A stretch of DNA of 6,686 bases from Planctomycetota bacterium (GTDB taxonomy: Bacteria > Planctomycetota > Phycisphaerae > Sedimentisphaerales > Anaerobacaceae), in contig JAGLTN010000110.1 in assembly GCA_023135255.1 (NCBI GenBank), forward strand, positions 1 to 6,686. Reading direction: 5' to 3'. The notes beneath the pieces were generated by a model, which had not been told where the DNA came from, did not search any database, and was given only the letters and a program-made list of their open reading frames with translations. Below, in pieces: positions 135 through 6,686 of the stretch. The translations under genes were made by a program, and so were the position numbers. The first letter of the stretch is position 1, and each line of letters begins with the position of its first letter.

Positions 135-1670
135 ATGTTAAAGAAAGTTTTTGTTTTTGCAGTGGTTATGATAGTTGCTTGTGTTTGTACGGCGGATGTT
201 CGGCTGCCTGGCATTATTAGTAACAATATGGTGTTGCAGCAGGAGTCTAAGGTTGCTATATGGGGCTGGGCGGAAGCTGGTGAGAAAATTCAGGTTCGGC
301 CTTTATGGCAGAAATGGGCGGCTAAGACGGTTGCCGATGGGGATGGAAAGTGGATGGTTGAGATCAAGACTGGTAAGGCGGGTGGTCCTTTCGCGATCGC
401 TATTAAGGCGAATAATGAAATAATTTTGCAGAATGTTATGATAGGTGAGGTTTGGATTTGCAGCGGGCAGTCTAATATGCAGATGGCGGTTAAAAGCTGT
501 GTGAATGCGAAAAAGGAAATCGCCAGTTCAAAGTACCCTGCTATCAGGTTATTCACTGTGCCTAATGTTGTTGCAGGTGAGCCTAAGGATAATTGCGGCG
601 GGCAGTGGAAAGTATGCAGCGCGGATACTGTTGCGAATTTTAGCGGGGTTGGTTACTTCTTTGGTAGATATCTTCATGAGAAATTGGATGTGCCAGTTGG
701 TTTGATCGACAGCAGTTGGGGCGGGACGCCTGCGGAGTCGTGGACGAGAGATGAGTATATGAAAAAGGATGCTGATTTTGAGCCTATATTGAAAAGGTAT
801 GCTGATGCTGAGAAGGCTTATCCGGCGGCTATAAAGAAATATAAAGAGGAGACGTTGCCGAATTGGGAGAAGGCAAAAGCCAAAGCTAAAAAAGAAGGTA
901 AGAAAGTTCCGCGTTGGCCTGGTAAACCATTTGGCCCTGACAATCCGCATCGGCCAAGTGGATTGTATAATGCTATGATCGCACCGCTTTTGAACTATGA
1001 GATCAAGGGTGCTATCTGGTATCAGGGTGAGAGTAATGCCGGGCGGGCTTATCAGTACAGGAAGCTTTTTCCGAATATGATCGCGAACTGGAGAGAGGAT
1101 TTTGGTATTGGGGATTTCCCGTTTTATTTTGTTCAGATCTCGCCGTTTAAGTATGGGACAGAGTATGCCGCGGCGGAGTTGATGGAGGCGCAGCTTTTGA
1201 CTTTGAAGGGTGTTGAGAATGTCGGTATGGCTGTCACTAACGATATTGGAAATGTGTCTGATATTCATCCTAAGAATAAGCAGGATGTTGGTAAGAGGCT
1301 TGCGCTTTGGGCGTTGGCTAAGGATTATGGTAAGAAAGATATCGTTTACAGCGGGCCTATCTATAAAGAGATGAGGGTCGAAGGTGATAAAATCAGGATT
1401 TCGTTTGATTATGCTTGCGGCGGATTGGTCGCTAAGGATGGTGACTTGAAACAGTTCCAGATCGCTGGTGAGGATAAGAAATTTGTGGATGCCAAGGCAG
1501 TCATCGACGGCAAGGCGGTTGTTGTTAGCTGTGATTCTGTTAGTAAGCCTGTAGCGGTTAGATATTGCTGGGGCAATACTGCGATTGGGAATCTTTTTAA
1601 TGGCGGTGAGCTGCCGGCGAGTCCATTCAGGACTGATGATTGGGCTGGGGTTACAATTAATAACAAATAG
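135..1670 (+). CDS. Secreted SASA-family esterase (sialate O-acetylesterase-like)
   Basis: This 511-aa protein is a carbohydrate O-acetyl esterase of the SGNH/SASA superfamily, expected to remove acetyl groups from a glycan outside the cytoplasm. Residues 1-20 are a signal peptide ending CTA|DVRL; Cys16 after IVA also fits a loose lipobox, so lipid anchoring is possible. An N-terminal beta domain (about 21-100) is followed by the hydrolase core. Visible motifs are GQSNM with nucleophile Ser113, SSWGGTPAESW (193-203, the block II glycines), WYQGESN (295-301) and DIHP with Asp376/His378. A lysine-rich helical insertion (about 205-260) precedes RPSGLYN. The C-terminal beta domain runs from about 404 to the end. 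The start is supported by AGGAG at 124-128, six bases from ATG. A terminator follows 29 bp after the stop. The exact substrate (sialic acid, acetyl-xylan, xyloglucan) cannot be read from the sequence. Confidence 0.93.
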   Translation: MLKKVFVFAVVMIVACVCTADVRLPGIISNNMVLQQESKVAIWGWAEAGEKIQVRPLWQKWAAKTVADGDGKWMVEIKTGKAGGPFAIAIKANNEIILQNVMIGEVWICSGQSNMQMAVKSCVNAKKEIASSKYPAIRLFTVPNVVAGEPKDNCGGQWKVCSADTVANFSGVGYFFGRYLHEKLDVPVGLIDSSWGGTPAESWTRDEYMKKDADFEPILKRYADAEKAYPAAIKKYKEETLPNWEKAKAKAKKEGKKVPRWPGKPFGPDNPHRPSGLYNAMIAPLLNYEIKGAIWYQGESNAGRAYQYRKLFPNMIANWREDFGIGDFPFYFVQISPFKYGTEYAAAELMEAQLLTLKGVENVGMAVTNDIGNVSDIHPKNKQDVGKRLALWALAKDYGKKDIVYSGPIYKEMRVEGDKIRISFDYACGGLVAKDGDLKQFQIAGEDKKFVDAKAVIDGKAVVVSCDSVSKPVAVRYCWGNTAIGNLFNGGELPASPFRTDDWAGVTINNK

Positions 1671-1742: not shown

Positions 1743-1778
1743 GGTAATATTTATTCACCATGAAGGTAATATTTTCAC
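1743..1778. repeat. Short direct repeat between the convergent genes
   Basis: GGTAATATTTATTCAC (1743-1758) and GGTAATATTTTCAC (1765-1778) are near-identical copies starting 22 bp apart. The two differ by a 2-bp indel. The pair is AT-rich and lies just beyond the terminator. No function can be assigned. Confidence 0.55.
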
Positions 1779-1783
1779 TTTCG

Positions 1784-1802
1784 ATCCTCGCTTCGCTCGG
1801 AT
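1784..1802 (-). other. Compact GAA-loop hairpin downstream of the FGE-fold gene
   Basis: On the minus strand ATCCGAGCGAAGCGAGGAT folds into ATCC/GGAT, then a tandem G-A/A-G pair of the sheared type, then GC/GC closing a GAA loop. GCGAAGC is a known unusually stable DNA mini-hairpin. No T-tract follows, so it does not resemble a terminator. It begins 57 bp past the stop codon of the FGE-fold gene. DGR target genes often carry a hairpin or cruciform downstream of the variable region that aids mutagenic homing, and that role is inferred here from position only. Confidence 0.5.
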
Positions 1803-1833
1803 GCAAAGGGTAAAAGAACAAAGAGCAAAGGGT
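1803..1833. repeat. Direct repeat GCAAAGGGT
   Basis: GCAAAGGGT occurs at 1803-1811 and again at 1825-1833, start to start 22 bp. This is the same spacing as the direct repeat at 1743-1778. The pair sits between the hairpin and the FGE-fold gene stop codon. The copies are short and could be chance in this purine-rich stretch. Confidence 0.4.
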
Positions 1834-1859
1834 TACAGAAAATTCAGGCGAAAAAACAA

Positions 1860-2765
1860 TCAACGACAAACTCGAAACCCTACGCTGTCGTCCGTGCCGC
1901 TCGGGCCGAAGGTGGCGCGGATGGAGACCGCACAGGCGCCGTCGAGGTAGCCCCAGCAGCCGCCGCGGAGAAGGCAAAAGCCTCCAGAATTAATACTACT
2001 CGTCCACTCAAAGACATTGCCCGCCATGTCATTCATACCATAGCCGTAAGACGGGTAATGGTTAACTGGCGATGTATAAGGTTTACTGGTCAGACCGAGT
2101 GGATTATTTGGCCAGTAATTCGCCTTGTTTGGATCTATGCTTGTCCCGCAGCCGTATGTGTAGGTGCCATCGTAGTCCGCTACTGCCTGCCACTGCCACT
2201 CAGTTGGTAATCGCCAGCTATAATAGTTACAGAATGCCGTTGCTCCATACCAGCTTACATAAACAACAGGGTGATTGCTCATATCATAGCCATCACGGCT
2301 GCGGACACTAAAAATCCCGCCGGAATAAGTAATCTGACTATCAAAATTGTATGGATATGTGTAAAAATAAAGCTCACCCTCAAAATCTGCTCCACTGTTA
2401 GAGCCAACGGCTCCATAGACGAAGTTGTATGCTCCAACTGTAATATCGTTGGAATCCTTGGCGGCATTCAGAAACTGACAATACTGAGCATTTGTTGTTT
2501 CGTATTTGCTCATCTCGCCAGTAAAACCGCCATGACTGATTGGGTTACCGTTAGGGTCTTTCATTCCCTCACCCGAATCGTTTATATCCACCCATGTTAT
2601 ATCAGGGACACTTGCAAGCCAATATTTTGCCATTATTGCAAAATCTTTATAATCGACTATTCCATCGTTGTTGATATCAGCACCTTCGCTCCAGGAATTG
2701 TCGCTGGCAAAAGATGGGTGAATACATGCACATAAAATGATAATAAAAAATAAAGTTCTTTTCAT
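1860..2765 (-). CDS. Secreted FGE/SUMF1-fold protein with dockerin-like EF-hand; probable DGR target
   Basis: This 301-aa protein has a signal peptide (residues 1-20, ...HPSFA|SDN; Cys14 after ILCA could alternatively be a lipid-anchor site). One dockerin-type calcium loop, DINNDGIVDYKD, spans residues 30-41 and is followed by a helix. An FGE-sulfatase (C-type-lectin-like) domain runs from about 58 to 301, with EMSKYETTNAQYCQFLNAA, HPVVYVSWYGATAFCNYY, RLPTEWQWQAVA, GMNDMAGNVFEW and RGG...GFR. True formylglycine-generating enzymes carry two catalytic cysteines after RGG. Only the second aligns here (Cys278); the first is Tyr273. Oxidase activity is therefore unlikely and a binding role fits better. 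The last 35 codons differ sharply in composition from the rest (see the variable-region entry). The start is supported by AGGAGA seven bases upstream of ATG, with a promoter at 2854-2882. The gene is convergent with the first esterase and divergent from the second. Confidence 0.9.
   Translation of the reverse strand: MKRTLFFIIILCACIHPSFASDNSWSEGADINNDGIVDYKDFAIMAKYWLASVPDITWVDINDSGEGMKDPNGNPISHGGFTGEMSKYETTNAQYCQFLNAAKDSNDITVGAYNFVYGAVGSNSGADFEGELYFYTYPYNFDSQITYSGGIFSVRSRDGYDMSNHPVVYVSWYGATAFCNYYSWRLPTEWQWQAVADYDGTYTYGCGTSIDPNKANYWPNNPLGLTSKPYTSPVNHYPSYGYGMNDMAGNVFEWTSSINSGGFCLLRGGCWGYLDGACAVSIRATFGPSGTDDSVGFRVCR
1884..1967 (-). other. Putative DGR variable region (VR) at the 3' end of the FGE-fold gene
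   Basis: These 28 codons (Arg267-Ser294) are 76% G+C, against 45% in the 84 bases just upstream. They contain 9 A against 17 in the coding strand, and 23 of the 28 codons end in C. Framework codons (RGG, W, the C/V and R positions, P, then GFR) stay in register with the usual FGE C-terminus. The intervening residues G-Y-L, G-A, I, A-T-F-G, S-G and D-D-S are encoded by GGC, TAC, CTC, GCC, ATC, ACC, TTC, AGC and GAC. Each of these can be derived from AAC by changing only A. That is the signature of adenine-directed mutagenic retrohoming from an AAC-rich template repeat. No template repeat or reverse transcriptase lies in the window, so this call is inference from composition and register. Confidence 0.68.
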
Positions 2766-3053: not shown

Positions 3054-6000
3054 ATGAAAAATAAATCGGCTTTTTTGTTCATATCGGTTTTGGTTTTAAT
3101 TTTATGTTCTGTGGGTTTGGCGGATGTTCGGCTTGGTAGTTTGTTCGGTGATTATATGGTTATTCAGCGAGGGATGAAAGTGCCTGTCTGGGGATGGGCG
3201 GAGCCTGGCGAGAAGGTGGCTGTTAAGGCAAGCTGGAAATGGGGAGCAGTTAAGACGGTTGCAGATGACAACGGCGAGTGGATGGTTAAGGTTAATGCGC
3301 CTAAGGCTGGTGGGCCTTTCGATATTGAGGTGAGTGGTAATAATACGATTAAGATTAAAAATGTTTTGTGCGGTGATGTGTGGGTTTGCGGGGGGCAATC
3401 TAACATGGCATTTTATGTGCGCAACAGTGATAATGCAAAAGAGGAGATCGCTAATTCTGATTATCCGGGGATAAGATTATTGAAGGTTGGTGCTGTTGTT
3501 GCCCAGGAGAGGCAGAGGGATATTGAGACTAAGGGATGGGATGTTTGCGGGGCTGGGACTGTTGGATGGTTTAGCGCGACATCTTATTTCTTTGGGCGCG
3601 AGATTCATAAAGAACTTGGTGTGCCGATCGGGCTGATAATGTGTTGCTGTCCGAGCACTCCTGCTGAGGCGTGGGTGAGCAGAGAGACGCTGGAGGCTGA
3701 TGAGGATTTGAAGGTAATACTCGATAAGGTTGAGGTTGCGATGGAGAGGTATCCGCAGGCGATGGAGGGATATAAGATGTGGATGGCGAAGTGGAAGAAG
3801 GCTGCTGCCAAGGCTAAGGCCCAAGGTAAGAATGCTCCTTATAAACCACAGGTGCCGAGAGGCAGAGATCATGTTTGTTATCCTACGGGGCTGTTTAATG
3901 GCTCGCTTTCGCCATTGATGCCTTACGGGATAAAAGGGGCTATCTGGTATCAGGGTGAGGCTAATGCTTCAAGGGCTTATGAGTACAGGAAGTTGCTGCC
4001 TGCGATGATCGGTAACTGGCGGCAGGAATGGGGACAGGGTGACTTTTCGTTTTATCTGGTTGAGATAGCGCCGTTTGGTTATTGGGAGCCTGTGCTTTCG
4101 GAAATGCGGGAATCGCAGAGGATTGTTGTGGATTCGGTTGCCAATTGCGGGATGGCGCAGACGATAGATATTGGTGATGTGCATGATATTCATCCGACAA
4201 ATAAGCAGGATGTCGGTAAGAGGCTTGCGCTGGTTGCGTTGGCGAAGACTTACGGGAAAAAGGGTATTATTTATTCCGGGCCTGTGTATAAGGAGATGAA
4301 AGTTGAGGGCGATAAGATTCGACTTTTCTTTGATCATTTGCACGGCGGGCTTGAGTGCAGAGGTGATGAGCTGAATTATTTCACTATCGCCGGCGGGGAT
4401 GAGAAATTTGTTGATGCGAAAGCTGAGATCGATGGTGACACGATATTGGTACATAGTGACAAGGTGAAAGAGCCTGTTGCGGTTCGGTTTGCGTGGGGAG
4501 ATACTCTGGTTCCTAATTTGTTTAATAAAGCGGGTCTGCCTTGCAGCTGCTTCAGGACGGATGACTGGCCTGGGATAACGGCTGATCGAAAGGGGTTTGT
4601 TTATTCAGGGCCCATTTATCGGGAGATGAAAATCGAGGGGAATAAGATAAAGGTGTTTTTTGACTTTGCGGCTAATGGTCTTGTTAAAGCGAACGGGGAT
4701 TTTAATCAGTTTGAGATCGCTGGTGAGGATCATCGGTTTTACCCGGCGGATACGGAGTTTGGACATGACTGGATAGTTTGTTTCAGTGACAAGGTTGCCA
4801 AACCTATTGCGGTCAGGTATGGCTGGGGTGAAACTGATGCGCAGAATTTGTTGAATAAGGAATGCATGTTTGCTGGGCCTTTCAGGACGGATAGCTGGGC
4901 TGATAAAGAACAAGTGAAAGCGAAATTGAGAAGCAAGTTTTTTGAGAAGCTTTATAGTAAGACTTATTACAGCTTGGTCGACAGAATCGAAGAGGATGGG
5001 TATATCGAGGAGTCTTTGACTGGTGCTTATGACGGGATGTATCCGAGGACTACGGGCGGGGTTGCGTCACTGCTATTGGAGACAGGAGACTATGCGAACG
5101 CTAAGAAAATTTTGAATCTGGATCTGCAGGTTGCAAGTCAGTATGGAATGGAAAGGCTGCCTCATGTAATAGGCAAGCACAGGGGCAGGCTTATACGCCC
5201 TGTGGCTGACGCGGATAATATTGCTCAGGCGAAGACTAATCATGTGGTTCATCATCTGAAACAAGGCGGCGGAAGTGCGGTTAGTTTTGTTGCTGGTAGT
5301 GATAAGGCAATTAAAGCTGTTGAGGCGGCGGTCAGGTCGAAAAAATCTAATGGTAAGTTTGTGCTTAGCCTCAGAGAATCTGCTGATGGTGAGGTGCTTG
5401 GGAGTTCGGAATTTTTTGTTAATGCAAATATGCAGGACGAATTGTGGAAGCGTTTTGTTTTTACTTCACCAGTGAAAGTTGAGGCAGGCAAAAAATATTA
5501 TGTTCGAATTGATTTTGTAGGGAAAGGTCGGCCTTGGTGGATGGGTTATAAGAGGCTTAATGAGAGCGACGGGTTCGGTGCTAATTTTCTTGTAAAACGT
5601 GAAGGAAAAAAGTCTTACTGGTTTGAGCAGAGCAGAGAGGCGGGCGGGTTTGCTATCGATACGGGCGACTTGGGGCATGAAGATGATGAAGAGTATTTTA
5701 TTATCAGCGATTTCGATGAGGTCGACGGGCAGGCTCATGTGCCTATGGCGTGGGCAAGGCTTGTTAGTAAGACCGGCGACAAAGAATTCGAGGATAAGTG
5801 GTATGAATATCTTGCGAAGATAATTGATCGGGCGAGTGACTTTCCATATTTCATGTATGGAAATAATCCGACGTGGGGATTTGTTGATTTGGTGCTTTGC
5901 CCTTCTTTTGAACATTCGAGAGAGTATCGGTTCTGGCATTGTTATGATCTTTTGACGCAAAGCTTTAATGGCGCAGCGTGGCAGGCGATGGCGGATGTTG

Positions 6001-6584
6001 CCAGGAGACGCGGTGACGATGCGCATGCTGATAAGTGGGAAGATAAATTGAAAAGGCTTCGGTATGGGATAGATAAAAATCTTACAAGAGAAGTTGACGG
6101 GAAAAAGGTTTATCTGGAAATGAGGCTGCCTGACGGTAGTGGTGGAAAGCCTATGCACGATATGGGATGGGTTAATTTTTCGCCTGTGGCTGCTCAGTGG
6201 GAAGCTTTGGACAGAGAGGTGCTGGTTAATACGATCGATCTGCTTAGAAGTAAAGCTATGCAAACTTTAGCGGATGGGACCAAGTGGCTGCCTACGGATT
6301 GGTATGAAGATAAGGGGCCTTCACCTGAGATCATTGGTAAGGGTATCGGTTGGGAGATTGATTTTTGCAGACAGCAGGGGCAGTGGTGGCGGATCATGGA
6401 AATATTTGAGATGCTGGAGAAGGTTAATACTACTGAGCTTTATATGGAGGGGGCTGGCTATCGGGATGGCAAGCTTATCGTTAAGGACGCTGGTAATGGC
6501 GAGCAGACATGCTGGTGGAGCTGGGCGATGGCGAGGCTTCGTAAGGATATGGGAATGGATGCCAAGCCTAAACGATGGGATTAA
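3054..6584 (+). CDS. Secreted multidomain SASA esterase fused to a putative alpha/alpha-barrel glycosidase module
   Basis: This 1176-aa protein has a signal peptide (1-23, SVGLA|DVRL), then an N-terminal beta domain and SASA/SGNH hydrolase core clearly paralogous to the first esterase. GGQSNM has nucleophile Ser116, WYQGEAN is at 298-304 and DIHP has Asp378/His380. Block II is unusual: the paralogue's SSWGGTPAE reads CCCPSTPAE (197-205), so the oxyanion-hole glycines are missing. The C-terminal beta domain occurs twice in tandem (about 404-511 and 514-620). Residues about 620-1176 do not match a family I can name. Their helix-rich repeats (YDGMYPRTTGGVASLLLETG, EYRFWHCYDLLTQSFNGAAW, CWWSWAMARLRKDMG) resemble (alpha/alpha)6-barrel glycosidases. 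A beta-sandwich-like insertion (about 730-866, with FVFTSPVKVEAGKKYYVRI) resembles a carbohydrate-binding jelly roll. AAGGA at 3041-3045 supports the start. Probable role: extracytoplasmic deacetylation coupled to glycan cleavage or binding; substrate unknown. Confidence 0.9.
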   Translation: MKNKSAFLFISVLVLILCSVGLADVRLGSLFGDYMVIQRGMKVPVWGWAEPGEKVAVKASWKWGAVKTVADDNGEWMVKVNAPKAGGPFDIEVSGNNTIKIKNVLCGDVWVCGGQSNMAFYVRNSDNAKEEIANSDYPGIRLLKVGAVVAQERQRDIETKGWDVCGAGTVGWFSATSYFFGREIHKELGVPIGLIMCCCPSTPAEAWVSRETLEADEDLKVILDKVEVAMERYPQAMEGYKMWMAKWKKAAAKAKAQGKNAPYKPQVPRGRDHVCYPTGLFNGSLSPLMPYGIKGAIWYQGEANASRAYEYRKLLPAMIGNWRQEWGQGDFSFYLVEIAPFGYWEPVLSEMRESQRIVVDSVANCGMAQTIDIGDVHDIHPTNKQDVGKRLALVALAKTYGKKGIIYSGPVYKEMKVEGDKIRLFFDHLHGGLECRGDELNYFTIAGGDEKFVDAKAEIDGDTILVHSDKVKEPVAVRFAWGDTLVPNLFNKAGLPCSCFRTDDWPGITADRKGFVYSGPIYREMKIEGNKIKVFFDFAANGLVKANGDFNQFEIAGEDHRFYPADTEFGHDWIVCFSDKVAKPIAVRYGWGETDAQNLLNKECMFAGPFRTDSWADKEQVKAKLRSKFFEKLYSKTYYSLVDRIEEDGYIEESLTGAYDGMYPRTTGGVASLLLETGDYANAKKILNLDLQVASQYGMERLPHVIGKHRGRLIRPVADADNIAQAKTNHVVHHLKQGGGSAVSFVAGSDKAIKAVEAAVRSKKSNGKFVLSLRESADGEVLGSSEFFVNANMQDELWKRFVFTSPVKVEAGKKYYVRIDFVGKGRPWWMGYKRLNESDGFGANFLVKREGKKSYWFEQSREAGGFAIDTGDLGHEDDEEYFIISDFDEVDGQAHVPMAWARLVSKTGDKEFEDKWYEYLAKIIDRASDFPYFMYGNNPTWGFVDLVLCPSFEHSREYRFWHCYDLLTQSFNGAAWQAMADVARRRGDDAHADKWEDKLKRLRYGIDKNLTREVDGKKVYLEMRLPDGSGGKPMHDMGWVNFSPVAAQWEALDREVLVNTIDLLRSKAMQTLADGTKWLPTDWYEDKGPSPEIIGKGIGWEIDFCRQQGQWWRIMEIFEMLEKVNTTELYMEGAGYRDGKLIVKDAGNGEQTCWWSWAMARLRKDMGMDAKPKRWD
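4272..4568 (+). repeat. Internal duplicated C-terminal beta domain, copy 1
   Basis: Codons 407-505 run from YSGPVYKEM to FRTDDW. This copy occupies the same place as the single C-terminal domain of the first esterase (YSGPIYKEM...FRTDDW) and is the ancestral one by position. It shares about 48 of 99 residues with copy 2, without gaps. Confidence 0.9.
4602..4898 (+). repeat. Internal duplicated C-terminal beta domain, copy 2
   Basis: Codons 517-615 run from YSGPIYREM to FRTDSW. The offset from copy 1 is exactly 110 codons (330 bp) at both ends. The DNA has diverged, with only short identical stretches such as ttcaggacggat, so the duplication is old. It links the esterase half to the glycosidase-like half. 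Confidence 0.9.
4911..6581 (+). other. Unassigned C-terminal module of the fusion protein
   Basis: Residues about 620-1176 have no counterpart in the first esterase. Regularly spaced aromatic-rich amphipathic segments and conserved-looking acidic residues (YDGMYPRTTGG at about 660, WLPTDWYEDKGPSPE near 1080, WEIDF near 1102) suggest an alpha/alpha-barrel glycosidase or lyase fold. The beta-rich segment about 730-866 breaks it and reads like a carbohydrate-binding sandwich. The family assignment is inference, and no catalytic pair can be named safely. Confidence 0.5.
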
Positions 6585-6627: not shown

Positions 6628-6686
6628 TACCCTTCAGGGTAAGAAATGTTCGCGAATAAATCCGTAACTTCTTATCTTTGAGTTAT
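6628..6686 (+). repeat. Leader repeat element, copy 2 (next gene's leader)
   Basis: The 20 bases at 6628-6647 are identical to positions 2-21. CGCGAATAAA (6651-6660) and AACTT (6666-6670) match 66-75 and 81-85 of the first leader. This predicts that a related or co-regulated gene starts shortly after the window. No terminator for the fusion gene is visible between its stop codon and this promoter. Confidence 0.75.

Follow-up and report, generated by a model that had tools for sequence, protein, structure and literature searches.

A probable DGR variable region at the 3' end of an FGE-fold gene, apart from its machinery, in a Planctomycetota genome

Introduction

The window, the whole 6,686-nucleotide stretch of DNA analysed here, is the entire contig C14 of a Planctomycetota draft genome (2.85 Mb, 644 contigs, 83% complete). 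An earlier note on it had proposed that the 3' end of one gene, encoding a protein of the FGE fold, is the variable region (VR) of a diversity-generating retroelement (DGR) whose reverse transcriptase (RT) lies elsewhere; such elements are bacterial machines that rewrite a single spot of a protein again and again. The locus raises two questions: whether a DGR wrote this gene end and, if so, whether VR genes without an RT are fossils or are fed by travelling machines, which the comparisons below make testable. DGR surveys usually start from the RT, and a large survey states, in the text available to us, that it would miss targets away from the RT (PMC8144416). For the target described here, the codons themselves gave the first sign, and comparison with relatives followed.

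Results

The features of the window are the following.

135..1670, plus strand: SASA-domain carbohydrate esterase, neighbouring gene (open reading frame and domain search)
3054..6584, plus strand: large SASA-domain protein, neighbouring gene (open reading frame and domain search)
1860..2765, minus strand: FGE-fold target gene, 301 codons (301 residues), the sole minus-strand gene, between the two SASA-domain genes
1881..1967, minus strand: variable region core, codons 267-295, with 15 hypervariable codons, all NNC
1860..1880, minus strand: GFRVCR plus stop, constant in the G044 template repeat and most homologues
1840..1847, minus strand: candidate initiation-of-homing site CTGAATTT, inferred, at +33 from GFR
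1772..1859, minus strand: conserved untranslated block past the stop, alignable with VR genes of other genomes
1786..1801, minus strand: TCCGAGCGAAGCGAGG element with GCGAAGC core, candidate DGR target-site hairpin

The FGE-sulfatase (FGE/SUMF) domain PF03781 covers residues 85-300 of the protein (E = 2e-28), which bears out the fold assigned in the earlier note. At the N-terminus we see, by eye, a signal-peptide-like stretch. The dockerin-like module that had also been claimed corresponds to a dockerin type I match at residues 30-65 (E = 6e-4), which is present but falls below the Pfam cut-off (20.4 against 22.9 bits); the proposed display of the binding face through a dockerin depends on this sub-threshold match. 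A homologue profile matched TvpA (PDB 2y3c), a DGR variable protein of solved structure, at E = 1.1e-12, and formylglycine-generating enzymes ranked ahead of it with better E-values. Fold searches returned FGE matches with TM mostly 0.40-0.45 and rmsd 8-11, too weak for placing the VR residues. The predicted structure has low confidence in the VR (pLDDT below 50 at residues 239-284), so surface exposure of the VR residues is presumed from the FGE-type fold in general.

The protein forms a cluster of one member, and the closest among the 120 homologues listed is 71% identical to it. Five named contigs carry relatives, all from Planctomycetota and one from Anaerohalosphaeraceae, which makes a planctomycete close to these the likely host. 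The contig bears the 20-base word TACCCTTCAGGGTAAGAAAT at both ends (2-21 and 6628-6647), likely a dispersed repeat where the assembly broke.

The unusual patch occupies codons 267-295 of 301, which is the position expected of a VR, at the 3' end of an FGE-fold gene. Over codons 267-294 the G+C content is 0.76, A accounts for 9 of 84 bases and 23 of 28 codons end in C; in 28-codon segments sampled from the part up to codon 266, G+C ranges from 0.33 to 0.57. These are the numbers given in the earlier note, which were right for this stretch and placed one codon off, as the 28 codons directly before GFR (268-295) have a G+C of 0.74, 10 A and 22 C-ending codons. The note's observation that the non-framework residues are all encoded by NNC holds in full: each of the 15 variable codons (272-274, 276, 277, 282, 284-287, 289, 290 and 292-294) ends in C, against 69 of the 266 codons 1-266 (Fisher p = 5e-9). 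The difference persists when only the pyrimidine-ending codons of 1-266 are considered (69 of 172 end in C; p = 3e-6).

To place these codons against a template, we used the template repeat (TR) of the related genome G044, described below, and an entropy alignment, covering positions 60-301, of the 60 top-ranking proteins out of 826, among them that of the window. All 15 positions at which this TR has AAC or AAT codons exceed 2.8 bits, a level passed by none of the 20 remaining codons of 267-301 and, from 60 to 266, by 4 of 207 positions (71, 218, 219 and 228). Because the 15 hypervariable positions are exactly the AAC/AAT codons of the G044 TR, the result supports a DGR variable region.

Relatives carry complete machinery. 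RVT_1 searches in 13 relatives, together with a DGR-RT alignment run over 161 genomes of the order (E up to 1e-40), identified six genomes with DGR-type RTs: G044, G047, G130, G107, G035 (with one stop) and G061 (a partial match). All six genomes' DGR-type RTs have the IG..TSQ motif. Complete target-avd-RT-TR cassettes are present in G044 (contig C78), G130 and G047, and G044 has a further avd-RT-TR at the end of contig C80. From TR to VR, changes affect 19 of 38 A against 0 of 73 other bases in G047, 13 of 32 against 1 of 85 in G130, 19 of 39 against 1 of 101 for G044 C80, and 18 of 37 against 0 of 86 for G044 C78, where the count takes in the 123 bases that precede the homing-site motif. A codon is deleted in the second G044 C78 target, which misaligns at full length; over 70 bases it shows 20 changes at A and none elsewhere. 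A copy on G044 C141 is identical to the C80 VR and adds nothing. The G044 target on the separate contig C132 differs from the C80 TR at 28 of 39 A and 2 of 101 other bases, which suggests that it may be served in trans by a TR on another contig. At the VR end, the G044 and G130 cassettes show a C-to-G change (CTGCA in the TR, CTGGA in the target); a change of this sort is the usual difference between template and target homing sites. In G035 (locus L071, C1:2381105-2382049), the DGR RT with an internal TGA adjoins an AAC-rich TR, and this cassette is possibly in decay.

When the window VR was compared with 240 loci, its best TR-like match was the G044 C80 TR, which comes from another family of the same order. 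Mismatches fall at 25 of 35 A, 5 of 34 C, 5 of 27 G and 2 of 12 T (p = 3e-8), that is, at 25 of 35 A sites against 12 of 73 non-A sites. Reading the comparison in reverse, with the window as template, showed no enrichment at A (A 2/12, C 7/36, G 17/39, T 11/21). The window also differs from the VR of G047b, again from another family, at 28 of 34 A sites and 6 of 62 others (p = 8e-13), the low non-A figure being partly due to the locked C, and from its own paralogue on contig C169 at 27 of 34 and 16 of 62 (p = 4e-7). Static paralogue pairs lack the contrast (4/34 vs 8/62; 7/34 vs 18/62). Confinement of variation to template-A sites is thus seen as a strong enrichment, and across lineages only. 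G043c was left out of the pairwise comparison, its VR being one codon off register.

Framework third positions offered a separate view of VR history. Between the VRs of G041 and G047b, from two families, 1 of 16 such positions differs, against 56% in the gene bodies (p = 1e-4). Between the window and G047b the figure is 6 of 16, against 57% in the gene body, which makes this sub-test weak for the window.

We then counted NNC codons at the 15 sites in 29 copies, sorted into VR-type and control sets before counting. The 17 VR-type copies have 10-15 of 15, with 15 in the window and 13 in paralogue C169; the 12 control paralogues have 2-10, and the two sets meet at 10 (L018 and L025). Left out of the count were L014, L019, L020, L042, L086 and two of L067, seven out of 34 copies in all; L017 was counted one codon off register.

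The DNA beyond the stop codon was also informative. The window's 3' block can be aligned with the corresponding DNA of VR genes in G055, G043, G047, G044, G040, G024 and one named contig, so that the search for genes sharing the same 3' flank, proposed in the earlier note, did find it behind VR genes of other genomes. A block-like stretch lies between target and avd in the G044 C78, G047 and G130 cassettes. Behind an isolated G047 target at 2.111 Mb lies an initial piece of avd that contains a stop (37/118 positions, E = 5.7e-13), and the G055 copy retains, by eye, a few of these initial avd codons; the window block stops near the expected avd start (by eye). In view of these avd stubs, isolated targets resemble the remaining front parts of cassettes truncated around the start of avd, and the window target may be another such front part. 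Paralogue C169 has lost both the block and the homing-site motif. Inserts with GTTAGAG/CTCTAAC-type ends occur in the 3' block at L087, L135 (G047 C1 near 1.7955 Mb), L037 (G041 C68) and L132 (G041 C44), and the G047 insert holds a small gene that is GIY-YIG-like by eye.

At the candidate homing site the window reads CTGAATTT instead of CTGGATTT, an A replacing a G. Among the other 16 VR-type copies in the count, 7 carry CTGGATTT at this spot, where the G044 TR reads CTGCATTT. The motif is absent in 4 of 17 VR-type copies and one has the TR form; CTGCATTT also occurs, at another spacing, in one control copy.

The TCCGAGCGAAGCGAGG element within the block is single-copy in its own genome. Across 10 genomes there are 8 copies, 7 of them beside a VR target or avd, and the exact form is missing from 4 of the 10, VR-bearing or cassette-bearing genomes included. 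A general repeat as the source of the 3' block was considered and rejected, since the 16-base element occurs once in its own genome and a reversed control pattern does not occur there. The window element folds no better than shuffled sequences (z -0.25, weak stem), and together with five others it spans z -0.70 to 0.36. Behind 11 of 20 VR-type ends there is a GCG-AGC core. In the gap between target and avd of the G047 cassette (L063:8088-8112), at the position corresponding to the window element, there is a perfect 10-bp inverted repeat with a GAA loop (z -3.94), which has this core at its tip and is likely a DGR target hairpin.

Finally, we searched for the machinery of the window's own genome. 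The open reading frame list shows no RT in the window, as the earlier note had stated. In the 83%-complete assembly, no DGR RT was found with RVT_1 or the DGR-RT alignment, and no avd with PF05635 or an alignment of four avd proteins that lie beside DGR RTs. The alignment was used because PF05635 detects avd poorly: it gave 8e-4 for G047 and 6e-4 for G130, missed the avds of the G044 cassettes and listed many other family members. DNA searches of the assembly found no TR, and a TR profile (150 of 223 candidates scored) returned only the C14 and C169 VRs and a weak match on contig C54. The near-copy differing at A positions beside an RT and an Avd-like gene, which the earlier note had told its readers to seek, did not turn up in this assembly, and its proposal of remote service found no RT, avd or TR to lean on.

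The genome's second copy, on C169, has a similar and more decayed end. Bases 41-160 of C54 (L119) may belong to a third VR-type gene, which lies at the contig edge and ends in GFRVASVPEPATL and a PEP-CTERM-like tail; it is a weak VR candidate (E = 0.036).

Copies with at least 12 of 15 NNC codons occur in nine genomes: G000 (the window's own), G012 (counted via L023, identical to L016), G024, G040, G041, G043, G044, G047 and G055. Only G044 and G047 have a DGR RT. The RVT_1 matches of G041, G043 and G055 are to RTs of other kinds; G012, G024 and G040 gave no such match. With a DGR RT in two of nine such genomes, counts that start from the RT may miss many targets. G043 is a single contig, 99% complete, and holds several VR-type FGE genes (L084, L085, L086 and L121, two with PEP-CTERM-like tails) and five RVT_1 matches, all without the DGR motif. 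Draft incompleteness is therefore not the whole story.

Viral sequences gave little. Phage records yielded 9 matches, all below 30% identity, and viral contigs with the target numbered none in one search and two, both distant, in another. No RT locus on viral contigs (the best 80 of 565 relatives) supplies a closer match to the window VR than the G044 TR does; the AAC-rich TR of the nearest viral RT (L159) is of GFRVSE and not of GFRVCR type.

Discussion

The coincidence of the variable codons with the AAN codons of a TR, the A-restricted difference, the cassettes of three relatives and the shared 3' block uphold the central proposal of the earlier note, and the reading of the patch as a probable DGR variable region is well supported by these comparisons. 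We consider it very probable that the 3' end of this gene was written by a DGR that our searches of the assembly did not detect, the gene being either an orphaned or a remotely served target. The same process as in the relatives' cassettes may well have written it. A DGR RT, together with Avd, would reverse-transcribe RNA from a TR rich in AAC and misread its A at random. The resulting cDNA would take the place of roughly the final 30 codons, as far as a point about 15-20 bases beyond the stop, and each AAC would become NNC, changing 15 residues of the presumed binding face. With AAC turning into NNC, a stop codon could not arise.

Whether the target is still rewritten is a closer matter. An RT-avd-TR cassette in an unassembled part of the genome or on a mobile element could be rewriting the gene in trans today. 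The VR looks fresh, with 15 of 15 codons locked as NNC, an intact open frame and the block kept; the G044 target on another contig matches its TR in the manner expected (28/39 A vs 2/101 other); and remote variable proteins are described in the available parts of reports on cyanobacteria (PMC7517822) and Thiohalocapsa (PMC10907252). Against live service stand the RT, avd and TR not found in the 83%-complete assembly and the precedent of G043, which at 99% completeness holds VR-type copies yet five RVT_1 matches without a DGR motif. The A for G in the homing-site motif and the weak hairpin also point towards an orphaned target. The nearest TR, from another family, with its 12 non-A mismatches, counts against the DGR reading as a whole. 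Within the DGR reading we lean slightly towards an orphaned target, which we regard as somewhat probable; live remote service is a serious possibility to which we give less credence.

It is very unlikely that no DGR was involved and that a G+C-rich patch arose through recombination or selection on the binding face, the C-ending codons reflecting local codon usage. Several framework codons of the patch do end in C, but selection on residues would neither give all 15 variable codons a final C nor leave the other sites unchanged, and the 12 control paralogues reach 2-10 of 15 NNC, with two control pairs lacking the A-site contrast. Least credible of all is an ordinary FGE/SUMF-type enzyme with an end variable through relaxed constraint: the Pfam domain agrees with it, as do the formylglycine-generating enzymes matched by sequence and by fold, with better scores than TvpA, but the high entropy falls on 15 spaced codons set among conserved G, W, C, P and GFR instead of being spread out, and DGR variable proteins share the fold (2y3c).

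A broader idea, which we hold tentatively and think rather improbable, is that targets outnumber machines in this order: many genomes would keep freshly locked VR genes without a DGR, rewritten in trans by a small number of mobile RT-TR modules that move from lineage to lineage and are then lost. If true, a VR would follow the history of its template and not that of its own gene, as the third positions of G041 and G047b (1/16 vs 56%) illustrate.

The window gene is most likely of a kind already known, a DGR target, and a further case that lies apart from its machinery. Among its closest counterparts are the cassettes of G044 (C78 and C80), G047 and G130, which share its target family and have a like 3' block before avd; the G044 C80 TR also matches the window in codon register and in its GFRVCR stop end. 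These cassettes keep avd, RT and TR, whereas the window has the target and block alone.

TvpA of Treponema denticola (PDB 2y3c) is a surface lipoprotein with its own DGR, and its VR lies at the C-terminal end. The window protein resembles it in its FGE-type fold (profile match E = 1.1e-12), and unlike TvpA it has a weak dockerin match and no DGR alongside.

Phage DGR target-site hairpins (BPP-1) are described, in the available text of PMC3240598, with GC-rich stems of 7-10 bp, GRNA loops and a distance of 4-34 bp from the VR. As far as that text goes, the element downstream of the window VR and the 10-bp stem with GAA loop of the G047 cassette are alike in kind; the differences from the phage hairpins are a spacing of about 36 bases from the homing-site motif to the element downstream (by eye), a loop of 3 bases and, in the window copy, weak folding.

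In the open PMC literature, we found no report that deals with this case, whether among DGRs with a remote and orphan VR, with a dockerin or from Phycisphaerae. Planctomycetes are listed among bacteria with several DGRs in the accessible portion of PMC10907252, and PMC7517822, so far as its text was available, counts as a remote variable protein one whose VR has at least 50% nucleotide identity to a DGR target of the same organism. The remote targets of cyanobacteria and Thiohalocapsa, as these partial texts present them, are like the window gene in being of C-type-lectin/FGE type, away from the RT and with the VR at the 3' end of the gene. They differ from it in that, for most loci, a DGR with a matching TR is present in the same genome, whereas none was found in the assembly of the window.
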